Shown one piece after another: positions 12,410 to 43,285 of a stretch of DNA of 64,000 nt. The stretch is taken from the NCBI RefSeq assembly GCF_900107455.1, contig NZ_FNQB01000005.1, positions 62,001-126,000 of the forward strand, given 5' to 3'. The translations under genes and the position numbers were made by a program. The notes below the pieces were generated by a model, which made no database searches, was not told the origin of the DNA, and worked only from the letters and a program-made list of their open reading frames with translations. The stretch comes from Asanoa ishikariensis (GTDB lineage Bacteria; Actinomycetota; Actinomycetes; Mycobacteriales; Micromonosporaceae). Position 1 is the stretch's first letter. Each line of letters opens with the position of its first letter.

Positions 12410-13655
12410 ACACGACGACCAGCACCAGGCCGGAGAACACCAACAGCGCGCCAGCCAAAGACAACGAGACCACCGGTGAACCGGTGATAGGCAACCCACC
12501 AACGGGCGGCGGCGACTCGATGTAGTCGTACACCGCCCGCGCCAACTCCCGCACCGTCGATGCACCGAGCTCCTCGGGACCAGCGGTCAGGAACGCGACC
12601 GCGATCTCCGTACCCGGGATCAGGTAGTAGCCCACGTCGTGCGACACGTCGACCAGTTCCCCGGTCTTGTGCGCGACCGGCACCCCCGAGGGCAGCGCCG
12701 CCGGGATCTTGCCGTTGAGGGTCTGCTCCAGCATGAAGCTCAACAGCAGGTCCCGGTTGACCTGGCGCAGGACGTTCCCGGACCAGACCGCGCCCAGCAG
12801 GGAGATGACGTCGTCCGGTGACGTGAAGTTCTCCGGCGGCGCCGGCGCGAGCATCTTGCGCGCCAGCACCGTCTGCGTCTGGTTCATCGAGTCCGCCAGG
12901 GCGTTGACCGGCCCGAACCCACCGAGGTAGTCGATCAGCACGTTGGTGGCTGTGTTGTCGCTGTACTTGATCGTGTACTGGGCCAGCCGAAACAGTGTCA
13001 CGTTCTGCGGGAACGTCTCGTGCTGGAGCTCGCCGGTTCCTCCGACGACATCGGTCGGCAAGACCAGAACCGTGTCCGTGTACGCGGCCTGCCCGCAGTC
13101 GATGCGGCGCATGAGCTCGGTGATCACCCACAGCTTGATGAGGCTGGCGGCCTTCGGCCGGAAGCGCCCGGCCACCGAGATCTGCTGCTCGCCGTAGCGG
13201 CCGGACAGGTCGCGGACCGATACGCCTGCGGTCACCGGCGCCGCGTCCACGATCGCCTGCAGCTTCGCGCCCAGGGGGCGCAGCCGGCGACCGAGTGAAG
13301 GCGAAACGGGCGGCTGCGGGCTGGTCACCGTCGGACCGCTGAGGTGCCGCCGGCCAATCTCCAGAAAGCCGGTCGAGCGCCCGACCAACGGCACCCGGAA
13401 GCGATAAGCCGTCCCCTCGTACGTGATCCGCCCGCTCGCGAAACCGCCACCGACCCGCATCGTCGGGTTGTACAGCCGCCCGGTGTCGACCGAGCACGAC
13501 CGGTACCGAACAGTGCGCGTGGCGGCGTCGACCGAGAAGATCCCGTCGCCGGCGGGCATCCAAACAAGGGGAGCGGAAGCGGCAAACGAAGGCGACGCCG
13601 GCAGTGGCGCGACCAGGGCGACCAGCACCATCAGCGCCGCGTACCAACGCGCCAT
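12378..13655 (-). CDS. Cell-wall-anchored class A beta-lactamase-fold serine hydrolase
   Basis: After a Sec signal (MARWYAALMVLVALVAPLPA) comes an N-terminal domain of about 100 aa, then a penicillin-interacting serine hydrolase domain: SLIK (nucleophile Ser and Lys), YSDNTATNVLID (SDN motif) and HKTGEL (KTG motif). I see no clear ExxLN omega-loop Glu, so true beta-lactamase activity is doubtful; a peptidoglycan-related role is as likely. The C-terminus is a sortase signal: LPITG, a hydrophobic span (VVSLSLAGALLVFSGLVLVV) and a basic tail, so the protein should be linked to the cell wall. A start at 13700 is also possible; 13655 gives a standard signal peptide. Convergent with the cysteine-synthase-like gene. 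Confidence 0.85.
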   Translation of the reverse strand: MARWYAALMVLVALVAPLPASPSFAASAPLVWMPAGDGIFSVDAATRTVRYRSCSVDTGRLYNPTMRVGGGFASGRITYEGTAYRFRVPLVGRSTGFLEIGRRHLSGPTVTSPQPPVSPSLGRRLRPLGAKLQAIVDAAPVTAGVSVRDLSGRYGEQQISVAGRFRPKAASLIKLWVITELMRRIDCGQAAYTDTVLVLPTDVVGGTGELQHETFPQNVTLFRLAQYTIKYSDNTATNVLIDYLGGFGPVNALADSMNQTQTVLARKMLAPAPPENFTSPDDVISLLGAVWSGNVLRQVNRDLLLSFMLEQTLNGKIPAALPSGVPVAHKTGELVDVSHDVGYYLIPGTEIAVAFLTAGPEELGASTVRELARAVYDYIESPPPVGGLPITGSPVVSLSLAGALLVFSGLVLVVVFRRRAVRTGI

Positions 13656-13743
13656 TCCGACCCCCGAGAAAGCAGCGACGCAACGTGTCAACAAGAACAC
13701 GAAGAGTAGTCGAGGGTCGGGCCGGCACGCCGCAGGAACAGGA

Positions 13744-14946
13744 TCAATAAACCAGGACGAGGTACGCCGTGAAGGCCGCCACGGCCGCGACCGCGAAGGC
13801 CCGGTGTCGCGCCGTGACCACCGCCGCCGGCCGCTCGAACCGGCGCACCAGCACGACGAGCAGCCCGAGCGCCAGGGCCAGCACCGGGAACCAACTGAGC
13901 CGCTCCGCCACCCAAGCTCCGGAGGACGGCGCGTCGGTCAGCCCGTCGAACGAGCCCAGCCGTGCCGCGCCGGCGGACACCGCGACCAGCGCCGTCTGGT
14001 GCCAGCAGAAGATGGTCATCGCGCACAGGTTGAGCACCGCGACGACGGTCCACAGCGCGTTGTGCCGGTGGAGGAGCCGGTCGAAGCGCTCCCGGAGCAG
14101 GATCGCCGCACCCGACTGCACGGCCGCCAGCGCCGGCACCAGCAGCGACGGCGGGTTGGAGTTCGAGCGGCCCGCGCCGGGCACGGTCACCATGCTGGCC
14201 GGATACCGCAGAACGACCACCAGAGTCGCGAACAGCGCGGCTCCGCCGAGCAGCAGGCGCCACGCGGTGGTCCGGGTGATGCCGCCGCGGGCCCACGCCA
14301 CGCCGAGCTGATAGGTGAACATCCACGCGGGTACGACGGTGAGGTACCCGGCCCAGTCCGGCACGAGGTGCAGCCCGTAGCGCGCCACGTCGGCGACGGC
14401 GACCATGCCGGCCAGCGGCAGCGCGGCCGCCCAGCCCCAGCGCCGGTCCAGCCACATCGCCACCGGGGTGAGCGCCGTCACCACCGCGTAGATGCCGATG
14501 AACCAGAACGGCTGCACCAGCAGCACCGCCCAGGTGCGCAGCGTCGTGGGCGCCGCGCCGGCCAGCGCGGCGAGCGGCAGGGCGGCCGTGACCAGCGCGA
14601 CCGCGGCCAACACCGGCCACGCCAGGCGCAGGAATCGCCGCCTCAGCCAGGCCCGGTCGGTGCCTCCGCCCGCCCGCCACCGGGTCAGCGAAGCGCCCGC
14701 CGCGTAGCCGCCGACGAGAAAGAACACGCCGAGCATCTGGAGCAGCCAGGTCATGGGCGCGAGCCAGGCGGCGGCGCGCAGAGGGCTGTCGACGACGAGC
14801 CCGCCGGCGGTGCCCGGGCTGAGCCCGCCGACCAACCAATGTCCACACACGACACCGAGGATCGCCAGTGCCCGCAGGCCGTCTATGGCCCGTTCGCGAT
14901 GAAAAACGGCGGGGGCGACCGGGGTGAGGGATACCGTCGCGGTCAT
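13744..14946 (-). CDS. Membrane acyltransferase (acyltransferase 3 family)
   Basis: About 400 aa with roughly ten hydrophobic segments. It begins RERAIDGLRALAILGVVCGH, the typical first helix with the conserved R and H of acyltransferase 3 proteins, and has WLLQMLGVFFLVGGYAAGAS and CAMTIFCWHQTALVA in later helices. These enzymes acylate exported sugars, lipids or peptidoglycan; the acceptor is unknown. ATG 14946 follows a TCGAGAG purine stretch and gives the standard N-terminus; the open frame extends to 15021 without family sequence. It lies 88 bases beyond the start of the hydrolase gene on the same strand. Confidence 0.82.
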   Translation of the reverse strand: MTATVSLTPVAPAVFHRERAIDGLRALAILGVVCGHWLVGGLSPGTAGGLVVDSPLRAAAWLAPMTWLLQMLGVFFLVGGYAAGASLTRWRAGGGTDRAWLRRRFLRLAWPVLAAVALVTAALPLAALAGAAPTTLRTWAVLLVQPFWFIGIYAVVTALTPVAMWLDRRWGWAAALPLAGMVAVADVARYGLHLVPDWAGYLTVVPAWMFTYQLGVAWARGGITRTTAWRLLLGGAALFATLVVVLRYPASMVTVPGAGRSNSNPPSLLVPALAAVQSGAAILLRERFDRLLHRHNALWTVVAVLNLCAMTIFCWHQTALVAVSAGAARLGSFDGLTDAPSSGAWVAERLSWFPVLALALGLLVVLVRRFERPAAVVTARHRAFAVAAVAAFTAYLVLVY

Positions 14947-20568: not shown

Positions 20569-20622
20569 GCGGCGGATGCTAGTCGCGGGCACCGACACTT
20601 CGGGAGTCCTAGGCTTGCGGGT

Positions 20623-32930: not shown

Positions 32931-33057
32931 AGACGCTCATAGATTGTCAGATCGGACCGCGTACTTCAAGACGAGGTTTTGTCGTACCCAGCCGCTACGG
33001 TTCCACCGTTCACAACGGATCGGGGAGGCTGTGTTGTCGGTCGGGCAGGAGCACATA

Positions 33058-36000
33058 GTGGGCGAGGACGGGCCGTTCACGCTGCCGGTCGCGTGGCGTC
33101 GGCATTTCTATCCACGCCGCGGCGGCACGCCCGGGCCAGCCCTGACCGCCGACCTGGCCAAGGCCGACGAGCTGGTGCGTGCGGCAAAGGCCACAATGGA
33201 TGCTCGGTTCGTCAACGCCCACAGCGATCCGCGACTGATCGCCGCGGGTGAGGCTTACCTGGCCGATCCCGCATCCGGCTCGCCGGAGGGGGCGGCCGTG
33301 GTGGCCGCGCTGGTCAGTGCCCATGTCGGCCGCAGCGAGCCCGACCGGGTCGGCAAGCTCGCCGACGACTGGGTGGCGCGGCACGGCGTGGTGTTCGCCG
33401 CCCGGGCCGCGCTGGTCATGGCCCGGATGGAGCTAGGCGGCTATTGGAGCAACGGGCGATCGTTCGACCCGCGACTAGCGTTCCGCACGAACAGCGGCTA
33501 CTGGAGCTTCTTCCCGCACTGGTTGGCGATCGCCGGCCGGGTGCGGGCCTACCTTGCGGTGGCCAGCGACGACGACTACGCCGCGGCGATCGACACACTC
33601 GCCGGGCTACGCGGCGACTCGGCGGAGGCGCGAGCGGCGAGCTCGTTTCTGGTGCCGACACAACAACTCTGGGTCGACGCCGACTGCGTGGAATTCAGCG
33701 CGACCGGGCACGGATTTGGCCCCCAACTGCTGTGGTGCTCGGCGGCGACGAACGACCAGGCCACGCTGATCGCCTCCGCGATGCACACTTGGGGCATCGT
33801 CAACGGCACCGACCTGTTGTCCACCGCGGTCGACGGGGTCGGGCCGGCCATCCTGCCGCAACTGCTCGCCTGGTTCGACCACGACACGGTCGGTGCCGAG
33901 GGGCTGCAACGGCTGGTGGGCCTGGTCGCGCAGTTCCCCACCGACGACGCGTTCGCTGCCCTGGTCGCCCGACTCAACGACAGATATGTGCCGGCCGCCG
34001 CCATGACGGCGGCCCGTCAGTTCCCGCGCCGGGCCCTCCGCATGCTCGCGGACGCGGGCACCAGGGCTGCGGCAGACCAGCTCCGGGTCCACGTCCTGAC
34101 CAACCAGGAGCTGGCCGAAAGCGAGCTACCCACGCTGCCGCCCGCCGCTCGAGCCCGGGTCGAGGCCATCCTCGCCGAGCGGTCCACCACGCCGGACGCG
34201 CTACCCGAGGCGCTGCCGCCCGTCCTGGTCACTCCACCCTGGACGGTCAAGCGGAGGGCGGCCAAGCCGACCGTTCTGACCGGGCTGGTCTTCACGGGGG
34301 ATCCCGTGATCACGTGGGAGCCAGGCGAGCAGGAGGAGTGGGCGGCTACTACCGTACGCCGCCTGGCCTGGTGGAAGCTCGACATCCCGATGGAGCGCGC
34401 GATCGAACTCTGTCGTGCCGGACGGCTCGAGGAGCGCCACCACGTGACGCTGATGGTCACCGGGCCGCGTGACGAGGTGTCGACGCTCCTTCCCGACTGG
34501 CGACCCGAGCGGGCCTGGGACGCCGACGAGTGGATGCCGACGATCATCGCCACGCACGGTGTCACCGCCCTGCCGGCGACCATGCACGTGGCCAAGGCGC
34601 TGCCAGCGAGCTGCACAGACTTGTTGATGCCGTTCGCCAGCGCCGAAGTCGCAGAGCGGATGGCCGAGGCGCTGGCCCGGCTCAAGTCGTTGCGCCCGCA
34701 CGCGATCGCCTGGCTCGACCGGCACCCCGCCTATGCCGCCCGGGCCCTGACCCCGGCCGCACTGGGCAAGCCCGGCCCGGCCCGGCGGGCCGCCGAGGGA
34801 GCACTCCGGCAGATCGCGGCCAGGCACCGCGACGCCGTGCTCGCGGCCGCCGACGACTACGGTCCGGCCGCCCGGGCCGGCGTCGAGGAACTGCTCGGCG
34901 CCGACGCGCTCGAGCTCCTGCCGGCGCGCATCCCGCAGCTACCGGTCTGGGCCGAGCCCAACCTGTTGCCGCGGATCCTGCTCGCCGACCGGTCGGCCGC
35001 CCTGAGCCCCGAGGCGGCGCGGCACCTGTGCACCATGCTCGCCATCTCCAAGCCCGGCGACGTCTACGCGGGCGTTCCCATCGTCCGCGAGGTGTGCGAC
35101 CGAGGCTCGCTGGCCGAGTTCGCCTGGTCGCTGTTCAAGGCGTGGCAGGCGGTCGGCGCGCCGCCGAAGGAGGCCTGGCCGCTGCACGCGCTGCGCTGGA
35201 TCGGCGACGACGAAACGGTCCGCCGCCTGTCGCCGGTGATCCGTGCCTGGCCGGGCGAGGGCGGCCACACCAAGGCGCTGACCGGGCTCGACGTGCTCGC
35301 CGAGATCGGCTCCGACCTCGCGCTGACCCACCTGCACGGCATCGCGCAGAAGGCCAAGTTCAAGGGGCTCAAGGACCGGGCGGGCGAGAAGATCGCCGAG
35401 GTGGCGGACGGGCTCGGGCTCACCGCCGATCAGCTCGCCGACCGGCTCGTGCCCGACCTCGGGCTCGACGACAACGGCTCGCTGACCCTCGACTACGGCC
35501 CCCGCAAGTTCGTGGTCGGTTTCGACGAGCAGCTCAAGCCCTACGTGGTCGACGAGTCGGGTGCCCGCCGCAAGGACCTGCCCAAGCCCGGCATCCGCGA
35601 CGAACCCGCGCTCGCACCCGTGGCACACCAGCGCTTCGCCGGCCTGAAGAAAGACGTCCGCACCCTCGCCGCAGACCAGATCCGACGGCTGGAGGCGGCG
35701 ATGGTCGGCCAGCGACTCTGGTCGGCGGAAGAGTTCCGCGACCTGTTCGTGCGGCACCCGCTGCTCTGGCACATCGTCCGCCGCCTGGTCTGGGTCGCGC
35801 AGGTCGGCGACGGCGCACCGGTCGCGTTCCGGGTGGCCGAGGACCGCAGCTACGCCGACGTCGACGACGACACCTGGGAGCTGCCGGCGGACGCCAAAGT
35901 CCGCGTGGCCCACCCGCTGCACCTCGGCGCCGAGGCGGCGGCGACCTGGTCGGAGATCTTCGCCGACTACGCGATCCTCCAGCCCTTCCCACAGCTCGGC

Positions 36001-36378
36001 CGCCCGGTCCTCGCCCTCAGCGACGCCGAACGCGCGGCGACCGCGCTGACCCGCTTCGCCGACGAGACGGTGCCGAGCACGACCCTGCTCGGCCTCGAAC
36101 GCCGTGGCTGGCGCCGGGGCGAGCCACAGGACGGCGGCGTCCAGGGCTGGTTCTGGCGCGCCACGCCTGACCGCCGGGCGATCGTGCTCGACCTCGACCC
36201 CGGCATCGCCGTCGGCGCACCCGACATCCTCGAAGAGCAGACAATCACCGCCGTCTGGATCAACACCCGCCCCCATGGGGACTGGCGACGGCCCGACCTC
36301 ACCGAAACCTTCGACACTCTCGACGCGGTGACCGTGTCCGAGATGCTCCGCGACCTGAGCGAGGTGCTGTCCCGATGA
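33058..36378 (+). CDS. DUF4132-domain protein, first gene of a YehI/YehLMPQ-like operon
   Basis: This very large soluble protein (about 1106 aa) has a C-terminal DUF4132 region (about 800-1100), including DEQLKPYVVDESGARRKDLP, DQIRRLEAAMVGQRLWSAEE and LRDLSEVLSR at the end; the rest is helical, repeat-like and Ala/Leu-rich. DUF4132 occurs in E. coli YehI, which sits beside yehLMPQ. The biochemical role is unknown. I favour GTG 33058 (GGAG six bases upstream; product starts VGEDGPFTLPVAWRR), but GTG 33031 behind GGGAGG is also possible. The final TGA overlaps the ATG of the AAA gene (ATGA at 36375), so translation is coupled. Confidence 0.82.
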   Translation: MGEDGPFTLPVAWRRHFYPRRGGTPGPALTADLAKADELVRAAKATMDARFVNAHSDPRLIAAGEAYLADPASGSPEGAAVVAALVSAHVGRSEPDRVGKLADDWVARHGVVFAARAALVMARMELGGYWSNGRSFDPRLAFRTNSGYWSFFPHWLAIAGRVRAYLAVASDDDYAAAIDTLAGLRGDSAEARAASSFLVPTQQLWVDADCVEFSATGHGFGPQLLWCSAATNDQATLIASAMHTWGIVNGTDLLSTAVDGVGPAILPQLLAWFDHDTVGAEGLQRLVGLVAQFPTDDAFAALVARLNDRYVPAAAMTAARQFPRRALRMLADAGTRAAADQLRVHVLTNQELAESELPTLPPAARARVEAILAERSTTPDALPEALPPVLVTPPWTVKRRAAKPTVLTGLVFTGDPVITWEPGEQEEWAATTVRRLAWWKLDIPMERAIELCRAGRLEERHHVTLMVTGPRDEVSTLLPDWRPERAWDADEWMPTIIATHGVTALPATMHVAKALPASCTDLLMPFASAEVAERMAEALARLKSLRPHAIAWLDRHPAYAARALTPAALGKPGPARRAAEGALRQIAARHRDAVLAAADDYGPAARAGVEELLGADALELLPARIPQLPVWAEPNLLPRILLADRSAALSPEAARHLCTMLAISKPGDVYAGVPIVREVCDRGSLAEFAWSLFKAWQAVGAPPKEAWPLHALRWIGDDETVRRLSPVIRAWPGEGGHTKALTGLDVLAEIGSDLALTHLHGIAQKAKFKGLKDRAGEKIAEVADGLGLTADQLADRLVPDLGLDDNGSLTLDYGPRKFVVGFDEQLKPYVVDESGARRKDLPKPGIRDEPALAPVAHQRFAGLKKDVRTLAADQIRRLEAAMVGQRLWSAEEFRDLFVRHPLLWHIVRRLVWVAQVGDGAPVAFRVAEDRSYADVDDDTWELPADAKVRVAHPLHLGAEAAATWSEIFADYAILQPFPQLGRPVLALSDAERAATALTRFADETVPSTTLLGLERRGWRRGEPQDGGVQGWFWRATPDRRAIVLDLDPGIAVGAPDILEEQTITAVWINTRPHGDWRRPDLTETFDTLDAVTVSEMLRDLSEVLSR

Positions 36379-37475
36379 CCACCGAGACCAGGCGCGACGC
36401 GGTGCAGCGGCCGCCGGCCGAGGTCCGCTACGCCGACGAGCTGGTCCGGCTGCGGGAGACCGACGACGGGGAACGCCCACCAGGCTGGGCGTTGAGCCTG
36501 CGAGCCGCCCGCACATTCATCGTCGGCGACCCCGACGCCGGCATCAGCCGCAAGTTCGTCGGTGACGCGTCGCTGATCGACCGGGCGCTGGTCACCCTGG
36601 CCACCAGCCGCGGCCTGCTGCTGGTCGGCGAGCCCGGCACCGCCAAGTCGCTGCTCTCCGAGCTGCTGGCGGCCGCGGTCAGCGGTGACTCCACATTGGT
36701 CATCCAGGGTGGTGCCGCCACGACCGAGGACCAGATCCGCTACTCGTGGAACTACGCGCTGCTGGTCGCCGAAGGGCCGTCGACCCGGTCGCTGGTCGCC
36801 GCGCCACTGTTGCGGGGCATGGCGGAGGGCCGCGTGGTGCGGTTCGAGGAGATCACCCGCTGCCCGCTGGAGGTGCAGGACTCGCTCCTGTCACCGCTGT
36901 CCGACCGGATGCTGGCGGTCCCGGAGCTCAGCGGCGACGACGGGCTGGTCTTCGCCCGCGACGGGTTCACCGTCATCGCCACCGCCAACACCCGTGACCG
37001 CGGGGTCAACGAGATGAGTGCGGCGCTCAAGCGGCGCTTCAACTTCGAGACCGTGTTCCCGATCCCCGACCTGGCCACCGAGCTCGACCTGGTCGAGGCG
37101 CAGGCATCCGAGCTCCTGGCACGCTCGGGCGTCCGGGTGCCGCCCCGCCGCGACGTGCTGGAGGTGCTCGTCACCACGTTCCGCGAGCTACGCGGCGGCG
37201 TCACCGAACGCGGCGACACGATGGAACGCCTGTCGTCGGTGATGAGCACCGCCGAAGCGGTCTCGGTCGCACACGCGGTCGGGCTACGAGGCTGGTTCCT
37301 GCGCGGCGAGGCCGGCCAGGCCGCCGACGTGGTCGCCTGCCTGGCCGGCACGGCGGCCAAGGACAACGCCGACGACCTGGCGCGGTTGCGCCGCTACCTG
37401 GAGCAGCAGGCGCGGGGGCACGCGGGCGAGCAGTGGCAGGCACTGCACGCTGCCCGGCACCTGCTGCCGGGCTGA
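36375..37475 (+). CDS. MoxR-type AAA+ ATPase (YehL-like)
   Basis: The AAA+ ATPase has 366 aa. Walker A is LLLVGEPGTAKSLLSELL, Walker B VVRFEEITRCPLEVQDSLLS, sensor 1 VIATANTRDRGVNEMS, and the arginine-finger region follows in ALKRRFNFETVFPI. MoxR proteins act as chaperone-like motors that load metals or remodel VWA-domain partners, and a VWA protein is encoded two genes downstream. It overlaps both neighbours: ATGA with the DUF4132 gene and TGATG with the DUF5682 gene. The set of families matches E. coli yehI-yehL-yehM-yehP-yehQ, so I read it as YehL-like. Confidence 0.9.
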   Translation: MTTETRRDAVQRPPAEVRYADELVRLRETDDGERPPGWALSLRAARTFIVGDPDAGISRKFVGDASLIDRALVTLATSRGLLLVGEPGTAKSLLSELLAAAVSGDSTLVIQGGAATTEDQIRYSWNYALLVAEGPSTRSLVAAPLLRGMAEGRVVRFEEITRCPLEVQDSLLSPLSDRMLAVPELSGDDGLVFARDGFTVIATANTRDRGVNEMSAALKRRFNFETVFPIPDLATELDLVEAQASELLARSGVRVPPRRDVLEVLVTTFRELRGGVTERGDTMERLSSVMSTAEAVSVAHAVGLRGWFLRGEAGQAADVVACLAGTAAKDNADDLARLRRYLEQQARGHAGEQWQALHAARHLLPG

Positions 37476-40036
37476 TGGCCGCGCCTGTCACCGTCGTCGG
37501 CGTCCGCCACCACAGCCCCGCCTGCGCCGGACTGGTCGCCGCGACGATAGAGACGCTGCGTCCGGCCTACGTGCTGATCGAAGGCCCGGCCGACGTCAAC
37601 GACCGGATGGACGAGCTGCTGCTCGGGCACACACTGCCGGTCGCGATCTTCACCTCCTACCGCGACGGCGAGCGGACGCACGCCTCCTGGAGCCCGTTCT
37701 GCGGCTACTCGCCGGAATGGGTCGCCGTGACCCAGGGCCGCGCGAGCGGTGCCGAGGTCCGGTTCATCGACCTGCCGGCCTGGCACCCGGCGTTCGCGAC
37801 CAGGGAGAACCGCTACGCCGACGCGGAGGAGCGCTACCTGCGGGCGACGGAGCGACTATGCGCGGCGTTCGGGATGGACAACGCCGACACGCTCTGGGAC
37901 CACCTCGTCGAGGCCGCACCCGCCGAGGGCCTGGCCGACCGCCTGTCGGTCTACTTCGAGACCCTGCGCGGCGACTCCGCGGCCGGCGCCGCCGACCTGG
38001 AGCGCGAGGCCTACATGGCGACCTGGATCCGCGCCGCAGCGGCCCGCGACGAGGGCCCGGTGCTCGTCGTGTGCGGCGGCTTCCACCGTCCGGCGCTGGA
38101 ACGCCTGCTCGCCACGGACGACAGCGCCGCGGCCAGGCCCGCGATGCTGGCGCCCCCGCCCGGGGCGGTGGGGTCGGTGCCTGAGGTGCCGGCGGCTCCG
38201 CGTGGCTGCCACCGCCCTGCGTTGAAACCGCCGGTCGAAGCCTGCGAACGCAATGCGGCCACGCCCGAAGTGCCGGCGCCCCCGCCCAAGGCGGTCGGGT
38301 CGGCGGCTGAGGTGCCGGCGGCTCCGGGCGGGGCGGCCTGGTCGGTGTCTGAGGTGCCGGCGGCTCAGGGCGGAGCGGTCGGGTCGGTGCCTGAGGTGTC
38401 GACGCCTCCAGGCGGGGCGGTCTGGTCGTGGCCTGCGGTGCCGGCGCCGCCGCCGGGGGCGGTCGGGTCGAGTTATCTCGTCCCGTATGCGTTCAAGCGG
38501 CTGGATGCCTTCCACGGCTACCAGTCCGGGATGCCGTCGCCCGAGTTCTACCAGCGCGTCTGGGACGACGGGCCGGAAGCGGCCGGGCGCGGGCTCGCCG
38601 AGACCGTGGTCACCCGGCTGCGTCGGCGCGGTCAGCCCGCCTCCACCGCCGACCTCATCGCGGCCCGCACGATGGCCGAAGGGCTCGCCCGGGTGCGCGG
38701 CCACGCCTACCCGGCGCGCGCCGACGTGCTCGACGGTCTGGTCTCGGCCCTGGTCGGCGAGGCGATGGAGGCGCCGCTGCCGTGGGCGCACCGCGGCCGG
38801 CTCGCCGTCGGCACGCACCCCGTGGTCGTGGAGATGGTCGCGGCCCTCGCCGGCGACCGGGTCGGCGCGCTGCACCCGGACACGCCGCAACCCCCGCTGG
38901 TCGGGGCCGTGACCGCCGAGCTGACCCGACTCGGGCTCGACGTGGCCGGGGCAAGGACGCTGGACCTGACCGACGGTGCGGACCGGGAGCGCAGCCGGGC
39001 GTTGCACCGGCTGCGGGTGTTGGGGGTGCCCGGATACCAACGCATCAGCGGGCCGAAGCCGGGCGTCGACCCGGCGCTGACCGAACAGTGGCGGCTCGCC
39101 GACGACCCGAACCGGTTGGTCGCGCTGATCGAGGCCGGCGGGCACGGCGCCACGCTCGCCGACGCCGCTGCCGCGGCCCTGCTCGAACGGGCCGCCGACG
39201 CGGGCGGCCGAGCTGACGTTGTCGCCGACGTGCTCTTCGACGCCGCGCTGTGCGGCGTCGCGGCCGTCACAGGAGAGATCGTCGCCTCGCTGCGCCGGGC
39301 GGTCGGCGGCATCACCGACCTCGCTCAGCTCGGCGGGGTGCTGGCGGTCGCGCTCGGGCTGTGGCGGCACGACCGGTTGTTCGGCGCCGCCCGCAGCGAA
39401 CAGCTCGGCGAAGTCATCCACGGCGGCGTGACCCGCGGACTGTGGCTGGCCGAGGGAGTGCATGGTGGACCCGCACCGGCCGACCTCGCCCGGCTGAGGG
39501 CCGTCGTGGCGATCCGCGACGGGCTGCGGCACGCCGCGGAGGCGCTCGACATCGACCGCGCAGCCGGGCTCGCCGTCATGGCGCGGATCGCGGCCGACGC
39601 GGCGGCACCTCCCGACCTGCGCGGCGCCGCGTTCGGGTTCGGCTGGTCGCTGGGCGGCGGCGGCGACCCCGCCCGGGCCGTGCGAGGCGCGGCGGCACCG
39701 GGTGTGCTCGGCGACTGGCTGGCCGGGCTGTTCAGCGTCGCCCGGGACGAGGCGACCGCCGACGGCGGGCTCCTCGACGTGCTCGACGGGCTGGTCGGCG
39801 CGATGACCGACGGCGACTTCCTGATCGCCCTGCCCGCGCTGCGCCAGGCGTTCGCCTACTTCCCGCCCCGCGAGCGGCAGCGGCTGGCCGAGGCGGTGCT
39901 GGCCCGGCGGGGGATCGTGGAGGACGGCCGCGCGCTGCTGCGCCTGCGGGCCGACCCGGTGCGGCGCGCCCGGGCGATCGAGCTGGACTCCTATGTAGAC
40001 GAACTGCTCCGCACGGAAAGACTCGTGGCGCCGTGA
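37475..40036 (+). CDS. DUF5682 protein (YehM-like) with an internal minisatellite
   Basis: The protein has 853 aa. The N-terminus VTVVGVRHHSPACAGLVAAT and YVLIEGPADVNDRMDEL are typical of DUF5682; VVCGGFHRPALERLL and, after the repeat, SYLVPYAFKRLDAFHGYQSG continue the family domain. The His-rich HHSPAC motif and the Glu in IEGPAD suggest an enzyme-like active site, but no activity is known. Between about residues 230 and 332 lies a low-complexity insertion built of 14-residue units (AVGSVPEVPAAPG-type) encoded by 42-bp repeats. The start overlaps the AAA gene (TGATG), and its TGA overlaps the GTG of the VWA gene. Confidence 0.85.
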   Translation: MAAPVTVVGVRHHSPACAGLVAATIETLRPAYVLIEGPADVNDRMDELLLGHTLPVAIFTSYRDGERTHASWSPFCGYSPEWVAVTQGRASGAEVRFIDLPAWHPAFATRENRYADAEERYLRATERLCAAFGMDNADTLWDHLVEAAPAEGLADRLSVYFETLRGDSAAGAADLEREAYMATWIRAAAARDEGPVLVVCGGFHRPALERLLATDDSAAARPAMLAPPPGAVGSVPEVPAAPRGCHRPALKPPVEACERNAATPEVPAPPPKAVGSAAEVPAAPGGAAWSVSEVPAAQGGAVGSVPEVSTPPGGAVWSWPAVPAPPPGAVGSSYLVPYAFKRLDAFHGYQSGMPSPEFYQRVWDDGPEAAGRGLAETVVTRLRRRGQPASTADLIAARTMAEGLARVRGHAYPARADVLDGLVSALVGEAMEAPLPWAHRGRLAVGTHPVVVEMVAALAGDRVGALHPDTPQPPLVGAVTAELTRLGLDVAGARTLDLTDGADRERSRALHRLRVLGVPGYQRISGPKPGVDPALTEQWRLADDPNRLVALIEAGGHGATLADAAAAALLERAADAGGRADVVADVLFDAALCGVAAVTGEIVASLRRAVGGITDLAQLGGVLAVALGLWRHDRLFGAARSEQLGEVIHGGVTRGLWLAEGVHGGPAPADLARLRAVVAIRDGLRHAAEALDIDRAAGLAVMARIAADAAAPPDLRGAAFGFGWSLGGGGDPARAVRGAAAPGVLGDWLAGLFSVARDEATADGGLLDVLDGLVGAMTDGDFLIALPALRQAFAYFPPRERQRLAEAVLARRGIVEDGRALLRLRADPVRRARAIELDSYVDELLRTERLVAP
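38165..38470 (+). repeat. In-frame 42-bp minisatellite inside the DUF5682 gene
   Basis: Units beginning GCGGTCGGGTCGG or a close variant start at 38291, 38333, 38375 and 38417, spaced exactly 42 bp, with a truncated fifth at 38459 that joins the conserved sequence SYLVPYAF. One earlier, separated copy starts at 38165. Each encodes 14 residues such as GAVGSVPEVSTPPG. Because the period is a multiple of three, copy-number change would keep the frame open. Confidence 0.9.
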
Positions 40037-41157
40037 CCGCCCCAGACCTCGAACGCTGGCGGCTGATCCTTGGCGAAGCCGCCGACGCCTGCCTGGCCGG
40101 TCAGCCGATGAGCACGACCGCGGCGGGGCGGGACGCCGCGCTCGACTGGCTCTACGGCCGCGACGAGGACCTGGACCGGCGCGACGTCCGGCGCCGGTCC
40201 GGCGGCGACGGCGCGTCTCAACTGACCACGATGGACTGGCTCGATCAGGTCAACCGGCTCTTCCCGAAGGAGACGGTGGAACGCCTCGAACGCGACGCGG
40301 TCGAGCGCTACCAGATCCCTGACGTGCTCACCGACCCCGAGGTGCTCGGCCGGATCGAGCCCAACGCCACGCTGCTCAAGGCCGTGCTGCGCACCAAACA
40401 CCTGATGAACCCCGCGGTGCTCGCACTGGCCCGGCGGATCGTCCGTACCGTCGTGCAGGACCTCGTCGACCGGCTCGCGGTCAGCGTGCGGCAGTCGTTC
40501 ACCGGCGCCCGGTCGCGTCGCCCGAGCCGGTTCCGGCAGGCCCGCAACCTCGACATGCGCCGGACGATCCGCGCGAATCTGGGCAACTATCAGCCGGACC
40601 AGCGCCGGTTGCTGGTCGAGGACGTGCACTTCTTCGGGCGTACGCGGCGGCAGCTCGAGCCCTGGCAGTTCATCCTGCTGGTCGACCAGTCCGGCTCGAT
40701 GGTCGACTCGGTCATCCACTCCGCCGTCACCGCCGCGTGTCTCTGGGGGCTGCCCGGCATCCGCACGCACCTGGTCGCGTTCGATACCGAGGTGGTCGAC
40801 CTGACCGCCGACGTCGACGACCCGGTCGAGCTTTTGATGAAGGTCCAGCTCGGCGGCGGCACCGACATCGCCCGCGCGGTCCGCTACGGCGCCGGGCTGG
40901 TCGACAACCCGCGCCGGGCGATCGTCGCCGTGGTCACCGACTTCTACGAGGGCGGTGCGCCGGGCGGGCTGGTGCGCGCGGTCCGCGGGCTGGTCGAACA
41001 GGGCACGCACGTGCTCGGGCTGGCCGCCCTCGACGAGGAGGCCAATCCGTCGTACGACCGGCAGACCGCGCAACTCCTCGCCGACGCCGGCGCCCACGTC
41101 GGCGCGATGACCCCCGCGCACCTGGCCGAGTTCGTCGCCGAGAAGGTGGGCCGATGA
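40033..41157 (+). CDS. VWA-domain protein (YehP-like)
   Basis: The protein has 374 aa. The N-terminal half is helical (LTTMDWLDQVNRLFPKETVE; MNPAVLALARRIVRTVVQDL). The VWA domain occupies about 215-370, with MIDAS motif LLVDQSGSMVDSVIHSA, the conserved Thr in QLGGGTDIARAVRYG and Asp in VAVVTDFYEGG. It lacks a signal peptide, so it acts in the cytoplasm. VWA proteins encoded with MoxR ATPases are usual working partners. GTG 40033 overlaps the DUF5682 stop (GTGA), and its own TGA overlaps the SWIM gene's ATG (ATGA at 41154). Confidence 0.9.
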   Translation: MTAPDLERWRLILGEAADACLAGQPMSTTAAGRDAALDWLYGRDEDLDRRDVRRRSGGDGASQLTTMDWLDQVNRLFPKETVERLERDAVERYQIPDVLTDPEVLGRIEPNATLLKAVLRTKHLMNPAVLALARRIVRTVVQDLVDRLAVSVRQSFTGARSRRPSRFRQARNLDMRRTIRANLGNYQPDQRRLLVEDVHFFGRTRRQLEPWQFILLVDQSGSMVDSVIHSAVTAACLWGLPGIRTHLVAFDTEVVDLTADVDDPVELLMKVQLGGGTDIARAVRYGAGLVDNPRRAIVAVVTDFYEGGAPGGLVRAVRGLVEQGTHVLGLAALDEEANPSYDRQTAQLLADAGAHVGAMTPAHLAEFVAEKVGR

Positions 41158-43049
41158 GGGCCGACCTGCTCGCGCTGACCACCGACGCGCTGGCCGCACT
41201 GACCAACCGCGGCCTGGTCAAGCGGGCCAGCCGCGCCGTCGAGTCCGGTGACCGGCCGACGATCCGGACGGACCCCGACGGGTCCGTGCATGCCGACTTC
41301 TCCGACGGGGTACGCACGACGCTGCCACCCGGTGGCCTCGTCGCCGCCTTTTGCACCTGCGGCGCGACCACCACCTGCCGCCACGCCCTCGCGTCGATCC
41401 TCGCCTACCAGGCCGACCCACCCACCGTGGAGCCCGCGGAGCCCGCGACCGCGTGGTCGCCCGGCACCTTCACCGACGCCGACCTCGCAGCCGCGATCGG
41501 GAAGCGCGCGTTCGCCGCGGCCCGACGGATCGCCCGCGCCGGCTACCAGGCCCAGGTCCACCGTCCGACGGCCACCGACCACGCGCCGCGCGTCGACCTG
41601 CCGGCCTGCACGGTCCGGTTCCTGGTGCCGCACGACCTCGGCTACGTGCACAGCGACGCCGCGCATGGCGGGACGGACCACACCGTCGCGCTGGCCGTCT
41701 GGGCGTTCCGGGTCGCCGACGAGCAGGATCCGGCGGCCGCCCGGCAACAGGTCGACGTCGGCAGCGGCAGCACCGGCCCGCTCGGCGCGCTGGACGACGC
41801 CGTCGCCCTGGCCGACGACCTCCTGCTCGACGGCGCCGCGCACGCCACGCCGCTGCTGCCCGCCGTCGCGGCGGTGGCCAAGGGGCTCGACGGCGCCCGG
41901 TTGCGCTGGCCGTTGCTCGCGCTCGAGGACATCGCGGACCAGCTCACCGCGTACGCCGAGCGCAGCGCCCGCTACCGCCCGGAGCAGCTCGCGGAACTGC
42001 TGGCCGAGTTGCACGCTCGGCGCCGGGCCGCCGCGAAGGGTGCACGAGTCCTGGGCACCGAGGAAGCCGCGGAGACGCAGCTACGCAGGGTGCGGCTGAC
42101 CGGCCTCGGTTGCCGGATCAGCTCGGCCGGCCTGGAGCACACCGCCGACATCTTCCTGGCCGACCCGGCGACCGCCACCGTGCTGACCCTGCGCCACCGT
42201 TGGACGCACGCGGACGGCCCGGCCGCCGGGTCACGCCGGGTCGCGGGCACCACGATCGCCGCCCTGGCCGGTGGCAACCTGGTCAGCGAGTCGGCGGTAC
42301 GCACCGCGAGCCGCCGGGTCCGCCTGCCGGCCGGGCGGCTGTCCCGCAACAGCGTGCTGGGCTCGGCGGGGGAGTGGGGCGACCTGCCACCCGGCATCCT
42401 CGCCCCCGACCTGGCCGCGCTCACCGCCGAGCTCGACCGACTACCACCGCGGCTGATCCGGCCTCGGGTCGACGCCGAGGCGGTCCGCGTCGTACCCGTC
42501 GCCGAGGTCAGATCCGTCCGCTACGCCCCGGGCGACCAGCGACTCGACGCGGTCGTCGCCGACGCGGCCGGCGGCACGGCGACGGTGTCCGCGGTCCATC
42601 GCTCCGCCAGCCCGGGTGCGCTGGACGCGGTCGCGGAGGCCCTGCCGCGGGCGCGCTTCCTCGCCGGTGTGGTCCGCCGTGGTCGGGGTGGCCTGGTCAT
42701 CAGCCCGCTCGCGATCGTCGCGGGCGAAACGGTCGTGGTGCCGGACCTGGCGACCGCCGGCGGGCCGCTGGCCGCTGATGGCGACGCGGAGGACAGCGAC
42801 GAGATCGGCCGGGCGCTCGACGACGCACTCGGCCTGCTCGCGGAGGTGGCACACCGCGGCGGGCACCACCTACCGCCGACCTATCCGGAGCGGCTGCGCA
42901 CTGCGGCGGCCACCCTCACCGACACCGGCCTGGCCCGCTGCGGCCAGGCGCTGGCGGCCGTGGCCGGAGCCTGCGGATCACCGGAACGACTACCGACGGC
43001 CTGGGCCGACGCCCAGATCCGCCTGATGGTCGCGTCGGACAACCGCTGA
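41154..43049 (+). CDS. SWIM zinc-finger protein (YehQ-like)
   Basis: The protein has 631 aa. A SWIM zinc finger lies near residue 63-78 (FCTCGATTTCRHALASIL: the CxC and CxH ligands). The rest is alpha/beta with Ala/Arg-rich helices and no enzymatic motif I can name. SWIM fingers bind DNA or proteins. It is the last gene of the five-gene coupled operon and corresponds by family to E. coli YehQ. ATG 41154 overlaps the previous stop. The 3' end at 43049 is followed by the duplicated tail of the opposing dipeptidase gene. Confidence 0.87.
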   Translation: MRADLLALTTDALAALTNRGLVKRASRAVESGDRPTIRTDPDGSVHADFSDGVRTTLPPGGLVAAFCTCGATTTCRHALASILAYQADPPTVEPAEPATAWSPGTFTDADLAAAIGKRAFAAARRIARAGYQAQVHRPTATDHAPRVDLPACTVRFLVPHDLGYVHSDAAHGGTDHTVALAVWAFRVADEQDPAAARQQVDVGSGSTGPLGALDDAVALADDLLLDGAAHATPLLPAVAAVAKGLDGARLRWPLLALEDIADQLTAYAERSARYRPEQLAELLAELHARRRAAAKGARVLGTEEAAETQLRRVRLTGLGCRISSAGLEHTADIFLADPATATVLTLRHRWTHADGPAAGSRRVAGTTIAALAGGNLVSESAVRTASRRVRLPAGRLSRNSVLGSAGEWGDLPPGILAPDLAALTAELDRLPPRLIRPRVDAEAVRVVPVAEVRSVRYAPGDQRLDAVVADAAGGTATVSAVHRSASPGALDAVAEALPRARFLAGVVRRGRGGLVISPLAIVAGETVVVPDLATAGGPLAADGDAEDSDEIGRALDDALGLLAEVAHRGGHHLPPTYPERLRTAAATLTDTGLARCGQALAAVAGACGSPERLPTAWADAQIRLMVASDNR

Positions 43050-43098
43050 CCAGTTCTTTTGGCCGACGCCGCGACCCGGCGGCTGGCCAGCCCGGCCC

Positions 43099-43285
43099 GG
43101 GTCGATCGGTCAGTGGCGGGTCCGGCTGGCGCCGGACCGGCTCAGCCCAGGTGGCTGGGCCGTGGCGAGTCTGGCTGGCGCCGGACCGGCTCAGCCCAGG
43201 TCGATCGGGCCGTAGCGAGTCTGGCTGGCGCTGGACCGGCTCAGCTCAGGTCGATCGGGCCGTAGCGGGTTTGGCTGGCGCCGGT
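43099..43285 (-). repeat. Tandem 49-50-bp repeats: multiplied 3' end of the dipeptidase gene
   Basis: The motif GGCTGGCGCCGGACCGG or a near copy starts at 43124, 43173, 43223 and 43273 (spacings 49, 50, 50), and a partial unit begins at 43099. On the minus strand each unit encodes a form of SQTRYGPIDLS followed by a stop. The first unit, belonging to the real gene, supplies the working stop at 43241-43243; the others lie beyond it and are increasingly degenerate. Confidence 0.88.

Follow-up and report, generated by a model that had tools for sequence, protein, structure and literature searches.

The closest described relatives of the system treated here are the Escherichia coli genes yehI, yehL, yehM, yehP and yehQ (yehI-yehLMPQ), for which, to our knowledge, no function has been established, though E. 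coli shares them with many actinobacteria and some Myxococcota. Other pairs of a MoxR-type AAA+ ATPase and a von Willebrand factor A (VWA) protein, namely RavA-ViaA, NorQD, CoxDE and MoxR-MoxC/L, have known clients and are not known to include DUF5682, DUF4132 and SWIM. We analysed an operon of the yeh type in a 64,000-nucleotide stretch of Asanoa ishikariensis (contig NZ_FNQB01000005.1, positions 62,001 to 126,000), hereafter called the window. The firmest new result concerns regulation: a predicted DNA-damage-type promoter motif precedes three of the four classes of DUF5682 system. The operon is probably a DNA-damage-inducible protein-remodelling machine, in which a MoxR-VWA pair would work with a Tiki-type hydrolase and be aimed at damaged nucleoprotein. 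The induction part rests on comparison, and we infer the biochemistry and the substrate.

The search pattern was built from what we take to be the consensus letters of the RecA-NDp promoter. This promoter is the site of PafBC action in mycobacteria (PMC6789036, PMC8223512). When both strands of the window were searched with a loose form (TGTCR, 10-12 bases, TANNNT), two matches were found, and one of them, at 32980, stood directly before the operon. The other was at 20597 on the minus strand (TGTCGGTGCCCGCGACTAGCAT). The strict form had 14 matches in the 9.09-Mb genome of A. ishikariensis vs two for the backward pattern, and the match at the operon is one of the 14.

Five aligned MoxR sequences served as the query for a scan of a genome collection, and the nearest 80 of at least 571 confirmed relatives were taken. 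This sample is biased (77 Actinomycetota and three Myxococcota, assigned from record titles). Gene starts were alignment-based estimates, so motif and junction distances are approximate. The motif was checked in 86 loci of class 1, the arrangement of the window; 25 were dropped (22 because the end cut into the first gene, three for lack of DUF4132) and 61 were scored. TGTCR-N11-TANNNT was found before the first gene in 50 of the 61 regions, vs a mean of 0.125 (a maximum of 2) in 40 dinucleotide shuffles and none on the reverse strand. The strict TTGTCR-N11-TANNGT was present in 25 of the 61 (shuffles: 0.025), and the gap between TGTCR and TANNGT was 11 in 45 of 47 cases. An unguided search of all 4-mer/gap/2-mer dyads, run on 37 non-redundant regions out of 57, ranked TGTC-N12-TA first (29 of 37 regions; 1.5 expected, with a pseudocount of 0.5 included). 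This search found the dyad without guidance from the consensus letters. The 90 motif matches in 1.56 Mb comprised 82 at the operon on the coding strand and eight off the operon or on the opposite strand. A motif of their own was found before 25 of 55 second-or-later DUF4132 copies and before six of 77 MoxR genes. By this comparison, the operon carries in actinobacteria a putative RecA-NDp/PafBC-type motif like that of recA.

The recA gene served as a positive control: in 13 of 21 genomes, including A. ishikariensis, the motif preceded the recA match by 95-121 bp (without a shuffle test). In one Streptomyces genome, the TTGTCRGNG form had 20 matches vs one for the backward pattern. Seven proteins encoded downstream of the 20 matches, selected by eye, were identified in Pfam as UvrB, DnaN, ThyX, O6-methylguanine methyltransferase, YjbR, WGR and SWIM. 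The WGR protein belongs to the class-1 operon itself, the SWIM protein is of the class-2 type, and an eighth protein looks like RecA by eye. Three of the 14 strict matches in A. ishikariensis, chosen in the same way, preceded a DNA ligase, an AlkZ-like glycosylase and a YjbR protein. YjbR-family genes follow the motif in both A. ishikariensis and Streptomyces (L133, L155), suggesting that this small family may belong to the damage-motif regulon. In S. venezuelae, the PafBC motif of mycobacteria is apparently not conserved, according to a remark in PMC9380542, on which the Streptomyces matches bear.

A. ishikariensis has PafA, two opposite-strand open reading frames (ORFs), two neighbouring WYL genes, TatA and TatC within ~8 kb, and pafA lies within ~3 kb of the WYL genes. 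One of the WYL proteins was scanned, and no PafB-specific model matched it. The proteins lowered in a pafBC mutant include MoxR1, MoxR2 and a von Willebrand protein (PMC5656591), which may or may not be relatives.

DUF5682 was present in 25 of 41 genomes, A. ishikariensis among them, and the DUF5682 systems fell into four classes. Class 2 has the order SWIM-DUF5691-MoxR-DUF5682-VWA, class 3 combines DUF5682 and VWA in one protein, and class 4 is VWA-MoxR-DUF5682-like. The motif was found in nine of ten scoreable class-3 loci (L039, L043, L048, L204 and L304-L308; absent in L049, with L036 cut), was clear in 11 of 19 class-2 loci (L035, L038, L040, L301 and L289-L295) and was found in none of six class-4 loci. 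In the seven class-2 loci L289-L295, the SWIM gene runs divergently to MoxR-DUF5682-VWA, with the motif marking its start. Class 2 also occurs in Deinococcus and Rhizobium, in the latter with the SWIM gene annotated as hypothetical, and in Hymenobacter and Methylosinus, where the annotation shows no VWA. A. ishikariensis has a second, class-2-like system with SWIM, MoxR, DUF5682 and VWA (L033, G000:C4:1962000-1980000; DUF5691 part not confirmed). Its DUF5682 protein scored 890 bits against the Pfam model, far closer than that of the window, and its promoter is a near miss by eye. The last protein of class 3 and the SWIM protein of class 1 are homologues (E 2.1e-5), and the single class-3 copy scanned with Pfam gave no SWIM finger. 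Two further kinships were tried and not shown in profile comparison: DUF5691 as a relative of DUF4132 (E 0.032), and the big class-3 protein as DUF4132 (E 0.12), though a small DUF4132 gene adjoins the latter.

In other phyla, two other damage regulators have been reported for relatives. E. coli F17EC0245 has a single WGR-DUF4132 gene at the head of the yeh cluster, between metG and the yehI-type gene, and CTGGATAAAATTACAG lies nine bases upstream of it, as likewise in K-12. Where F17EC0245 has this one gene, K-12 annotates yehF and the pseudogene yehH (L002 2475-6270 vs L207 6448-10236). Studies of K-12 may have missed a function owing to the broken gene. The name molR presumably refers to yehF/yehH. 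E. coli molR is among the LexA-regulated genes listed in PMC11039860, and yehF appears in an SOS table with transcript values of up to 1.14 (PMC11002266). In Deinococcus radiodurans, drA0165-0166 is reported as a DdrO target by all criteria applied (DdrO site, chromatin immunoprecipitation and RNA sequencing); DRA0166 has DUF4132 and is induced by mitomycin C (PMC8533742). The putative regulators of the module are PafBC in actinobacteria, LexA in E. coli and DdrO in Deinococcus, the last for the DUF4132 part. Two close Myxococcota relatives of class 1, L211 (4750) and L212 (5486, reverse complement), share an identical strict match (TTGTCACCTGGAGTGGCTATGGT) 511-517 bp before the DUF4132 homology. 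Scans for LexA, radiation/desiccation response motif (RDRM) and alpha-type boxes in Deinococcus, Rhizobiaceae, Iodobacter, Hymenobacter and Methylosinus plasmid loci gave nothing convincing; Hymenobacter had one RDRM-like match with two mismatches at -190.

The order MoxR-DUF5682-VWA-SWIM was kept in 69 of the 70 loci with sufficient downstream DNA, and all five genes were adjacent in 63 of the 69 loci with room on both sides (exceptions: L063, L079, L105, L127, L129 and L131). Junctions of ≤40 nt were found in 74 of 80, 57 of 75 and 62 of 74 cases. E. coli K-12 has the five families in the order of the window and in a single orientation, yehK being inserted after yehI and before yehL. Among 20 Myxococcota stretches, the five genes stood in one row in L208, L209, L211 and L212; L210 was without a DUF4132 match, the DUF4132 gene was divergent in L213, L223-L225 were class 2 and the remainder had other arrangements. 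Iodobacter keeps the order, with the SWIM part annotated as two genes, and in two Rhizobiaceae plasmids DUF4132 sits between DUF5682 and VWA. As order and adjacency recur across the loci of relatives, the five-gene grouping is not due to chance, and the comparison marks the operon as one conserved unit.

Table 1. Features of the operon and its upstream region (window coordinates; aa, amino acids)
Feature	Position	Strand	Details
RecA-NDp/PafBC-type promoter motif (predicted), TTGTCGTAC-CCAGCCGC-TACGGT	32979-33001	+	ends 57 bp before first start codon
DUF4132 protein, YehI homologue	33058-36378	+	1106 aa; GTG start; DUF4132 domain aa 835-1018
MoxR AAA+ ATPase, YehL homologue	36375-37475	+	366 aa; ATGA overlap with DUF4132 gene
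DUF5682 protein, YehM homologue	37475-40036	+	853 aa; TGATG junction with MoxR gene
Putative Tiki/ChaN/TraB-superfamily domain of DUF5682 (aa 1-212)	37475-38110	+	conserved RHHSP, IEGP, REAYM, GGFH
Low-complexity Pro/Ala/Gly/Val insert in DUF5682 (aa ~211-329)	38105-38461	+	most trimmed relatives ~740-795 aa
VWA (CoxE-like) protein, YehP homologue	40033-41157	+	374 aa; GTGA overlap with DUF5682 gene
SWIM protein, YehQ homologue	41154-43049	+	631 aa; ATGA overlap with VWA gene
SWIM zinc-finger ligands C67-x-C69-x5-C75-x-H77	41352-41384	+	CxCx5CxH pattern in 72/76

A sequence-only reading of the window had described a YehI-YehLMPQ-type operon of five genes joined by four stop/start overlaps. All five genes and all of these overlaps were recovered at the same positions (Table 1), and all five products were homologous to those of E. 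coli, with E-values of 4.5e-48 (SWIM and YehQ), 9e-97 (DUF4132 and YehI), 1.7e-75 and 1.2e-54 (DUF5682 and YehM, two stretches), 9e-149 (VWA and YehP) and 2.8e-161 (MoxR and YehL). Four families were firm in Pfam (DUF4132 4.5e-59, AAA_5 8.8e-35, DUF5682 1.1e-102 and VWA_CoxE 5.4e-59). SWIM stayed below its threshold (E 0.0081, 16.1 bits vs a cut-off of 19.6), yet the protein is a YehQ homologue. That reading had also called for a survey of gene neighbourhoods, and the recurrence described above, in Actinomycetota, some Myxococcota and E. coli, bears out its grouping of the genes. The overlaps indicate probable translational coupling; the fixed stoichiometry it had drawn from them is not implied. 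A GGAG ends 6 nt ahead of the GTG start codon of the first gene. Judged by eye alone, no signal peptide was recognised in the five proteins. A tandem array (50-bp unit, 3.8 copies, 87% matches) lies behind the operon at 43095-43284.

The ATPase and metal ion-dependent adhesion site (MIDAS) motifs of the MoxR and VWA proteins are intact and nearly invariant. The MoxR motifs Walker A (GEPGTAKS), Walker B (VRFEE) and the arginine-finger region (KRRF) were kept in 81, 82 and 82 of 82 sequences, respectively, and the VWA protein has the MIDAS motifs DQSGS, GGGTD and TDF. Going by the families, the earlier proposal of an AAA+ ring that would remodel the VWA protein is plausible.

DUF5682 seems to begin with a domain of the Tiki/ChaN/TraB superfamily. 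In the N-terminal part, RHHSP was conserved in 82 of 82 sequences, EGP in 80 and GGFH in 78. We compared profiles made from 30 sequences each of ChaN and TraB and from 86 DUF5682 N-termini. The match to ChaN had an E-value of 3.2e-6 and a probability of 88% over 187 columns. The positive control, ChaN with TraB, gave 4.9e-10, and the negative controls (C-terminal part, MoxR and reversed profiles) gave 0.075-0.37. With smaller, badly extracted sets (7/30 ChaN and 15/30 TraB sequences kept), the E-values were 0.0036 for TraB and 0.11 for ChaN. Single DUF5682 sequences matched the ChaN and TraB Pfam models weakly (8/44 and 3/44; best E 0.022 and 0.13). Profiles compared with solved structures gave nothing (best E 0.52 for DUF5682 and 0.1 for DUF4132). 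The insert directly behind the Tiki-like domain is repeat-like and comprises ~118 residues; most relatives are shorter.

WGR and DUF4132 were joined in one ORF in 33 ORFs from 27 of 102 loci. In the A. ishikariensis genome, DUF4132 is a single gene, and no WGR match was found in that copy. Tandem DUF4132 copies within a locus had a median identity of 49% (47 pairs), and the best match was in the same locus in only 12 of 73 cases. Most tandem copies are therefore old paralogues.

The ring, adaptor, Tiki-type hydrolase and WGR/SWIM targeting of the favoured damage-response machine would follow from family membership, one fusion and one profile match. DNA damage would turn the operon on through PafBC, and MoxR would assemble as a hexameric AAA+ ring. 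The VWA protein may act as its adaptor, with a peptide bound via the MIDAS site. DUF5682 probably rides on the VWA protein and would bring the hydrolase-like domain; direct contact between the two is argued from class 3, which fuses them. DUF4132, which varies from one copy to several diverged ones and in some cases has a WGR tip, would recognise the target together with the SWIM protein, the target probably being damaged nucleoprotein. ATP-driven pulling by MoxR/VWA might then remodel the target or feed it to the Tiki-type site. A more specific version is speculative and for now rather doubtful: the bacterial response to DNA damage would have an ATP-driven protease with a Tiki fold, which WGR- or SWIM-bearing scaffolds would guide to DNA breaks, and MoxR/VWA would draw a bound protein from the nucleoprotein complex into the DUF5682 active site.

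Several observations weigh against the damage-response reading. The motif was absent in 11 of the 61 class-1 regions (L064, L070, L071, L074, L078, L080, L084, L094, L098, L123 and L130). In class 2, it was doubtful in three of the 19 loci, where it lies at or beside the start codon (L300, L302 and L303), and absent in five (L033 and L296-L299, four of one family). Many matches in A. ishikariensis precede genes that do not look like repair genes by eye (ABC transporters, an epoxide-hydrolase-like protein and a peptidase). In Myxococcota, 12 of the 20 fetched loci had no coding-strand match of the PafBC type. Six others (L215-L220) had their match at the MoxR start codon, which is probably a coding coincidence; L215 has one further match elsewhere. 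The Myxococcus LexA consensus, in the form used here, matched none of the 20 Myxococcota loci. The E. coli box is weak, with 4/16 mismatches and two such matches in 22 kb, and the D. radiodurans DUF4132 operon could not be placed beside MoxR/DUF5682. A. vitis has no alpha-LexA box near the operon; only Sinorhizobium has one, ~700 bp upstream. Moreover, the match of DUF5682 to TraB (E 5.6e-5, probability 66%) covered 76 columns only, and all E-values of this profile comparison are pairwise. Catalysis by the Tiki-like domain is putative, and ChaN is a haem-binding family.

The strongest rival is a biological-conflict system, anti-phage or altruistic, in which phage or prophage damage would induce the operon, the DUF4132 copies would sense the invader and the DUF5682 effector would halt growth. 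The sequence-only reading had suggested such a role, and MoxR-vWA ternary conflict systems have been proposed (PMC7159879). The patchy spread would fit: DUF5682 was found in 17 of 198 Actinomycetota genomes and, in the type of the window, in two of six genomes of the genus. The divergence of the tandem DUF4132 copies would fit too, as would 38 plasmid-collection records with MoxR at E ≤1e-60 (identity 42-82%), several of which are chromosome-sized and part of which are class 2. Phage also damages DNA, hence the motif is compatible with this role. PADLOC, however, gave one weak match for the five proteins (IetA, E 0.0078, 28 residues), and five matches at 1e-10 among 144 of 405 candidate flanking proteins (64 loci), without a background set. 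No defence gene was present among the six window neighbours scanned, which were an arabinofuranosidase-domain protein, an endo/exonuclease/phosphatase-family protein, a thiamine pyrophosphate enzyme, a transporter, an acyltransferase and a LacI regulator. There was one phage record, and no viral contig was confirmed in a scan aimed at close relatives. The phage record, MT835988.1 (Bacteriophage sp., human faeces, 14 kb), has at 12855-13916 a MoxR 45.6% identical to that of the window; it is unannotated and may be bacterial. The motif is shared with recA, uvrB and ligase-type genes, so repair fits at least as well. Hence, the conflict role is less supported than the sequence-only reading had suggested, and we consider it unlikely, if still worth weighing; the operon type, order and overlaps given there stand. 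Not noticed in that reading were the predicted damage-type promoter, the putative Tiki-superfamily domain in DUF5682, the fusions of WGR with DUF4132 and the sister classes, one of which has DUF5682 and VWA in a single protein.

A dedicated maturation chaperone like NorQD, CoxDE or other MoxR-VWA pairs would insert a metal into, or activate, one stress enzyme, with DUF5682 binding a cofactor in the manner of ChaN. VWA_CoxE is the best Pfam match of the VWA protein, ChaN was the closer of the two superfamily profiles compared with the DUF5682 N-terminus, and MoxR-VWA pairs serve metal insertion (PMC7159879). No conserved client enzyme was found beside the operon, however, and no Pfam family occurred in more than seven of the 144 flanking proteins; we regard this role as improbable. 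A role in regulating molybdate metabolism, for which the E. coli gene name molR and a mention in PMC8533742 speak, is scarcely credible, as that paper gives moeA/moeB as unchanged and the 25 most frequent families in the flanking proteins include none linked to molybdenum.

A damage-type promoter across dozens of operons, together with the two other damage regulators reported for relatives, gives these orphan genes a testable role. If the damage-response reading is true, the DNA-damage responses of several phyla include a remodelling machine of AAA+ and VWA proteins that brings a hydrolase-like domain and is absent from the repair schemes known to us. Among the open-access papers searched, none mentions DUF5682 and three mention DUF4132; of those listed in the searches, none was found to link these genes together or to PafBC.

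The operon resembles the MoxR-vWA ternary systems of Kaur et al. 2020 (PMC7159879) in having MoxR, VWA and further components in one operon. It seems to differ from them in these components: at E 0.01, Pfam showed DUF5682, DUF4132 and SWIM and none of the named third components (VMAP, iSTAND, FtsH, beta-propeller), with no dedicated VMAP or iSTAND profile search. The window MoxR matched the bpMoxR profile weakly (5.9e-5, 22.7 bits, below the cut-off), and a word search of the main text of PMC7159879 returned no mention of YehL, SWIM, DUF4132 or DUF5682. With RavA-ViaA, NorQD, CoxDE and MoxR-MoxC/L, the operon shares an AAA+ MoxR protein with a VWA partner and a likely remodelling activity. Like the Tiki superfamily (ChaN, TraB/PrgY/GumN), DUF5682 would have the superfamily domain, in its first 212 residues, which align with ChaN over 187 columns; unlike it, DUF5682 has no signal peptide by eye, has a long C-terminal region and is encoded with AAA+/VWA. 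Class 2 shares MoxR, DUF5682, VWA and the SWIM protein, and in part the PafBC-type motif, but has DUF5691 for DUF4132 and another order or a divergent SWIM gene. The E. coli yeh locus differs from the window in its looser overlaps, in yehK, in its WGR-bearing DUF4132 gene beside yehI, where A. ishikariensis has one DUF4132 gene without WGR, and in its regulator. It is nevertheless the closest in kind. The five families, their order and their strand are shared, both have a reported or suggested damage regulator upstream (LexA in E. coli, a PafBC-type motif in the window), the VWA proteins are 57% identical, and the window MoxR, 62% identical to YehL, is a putative member of the YehL subfamily.

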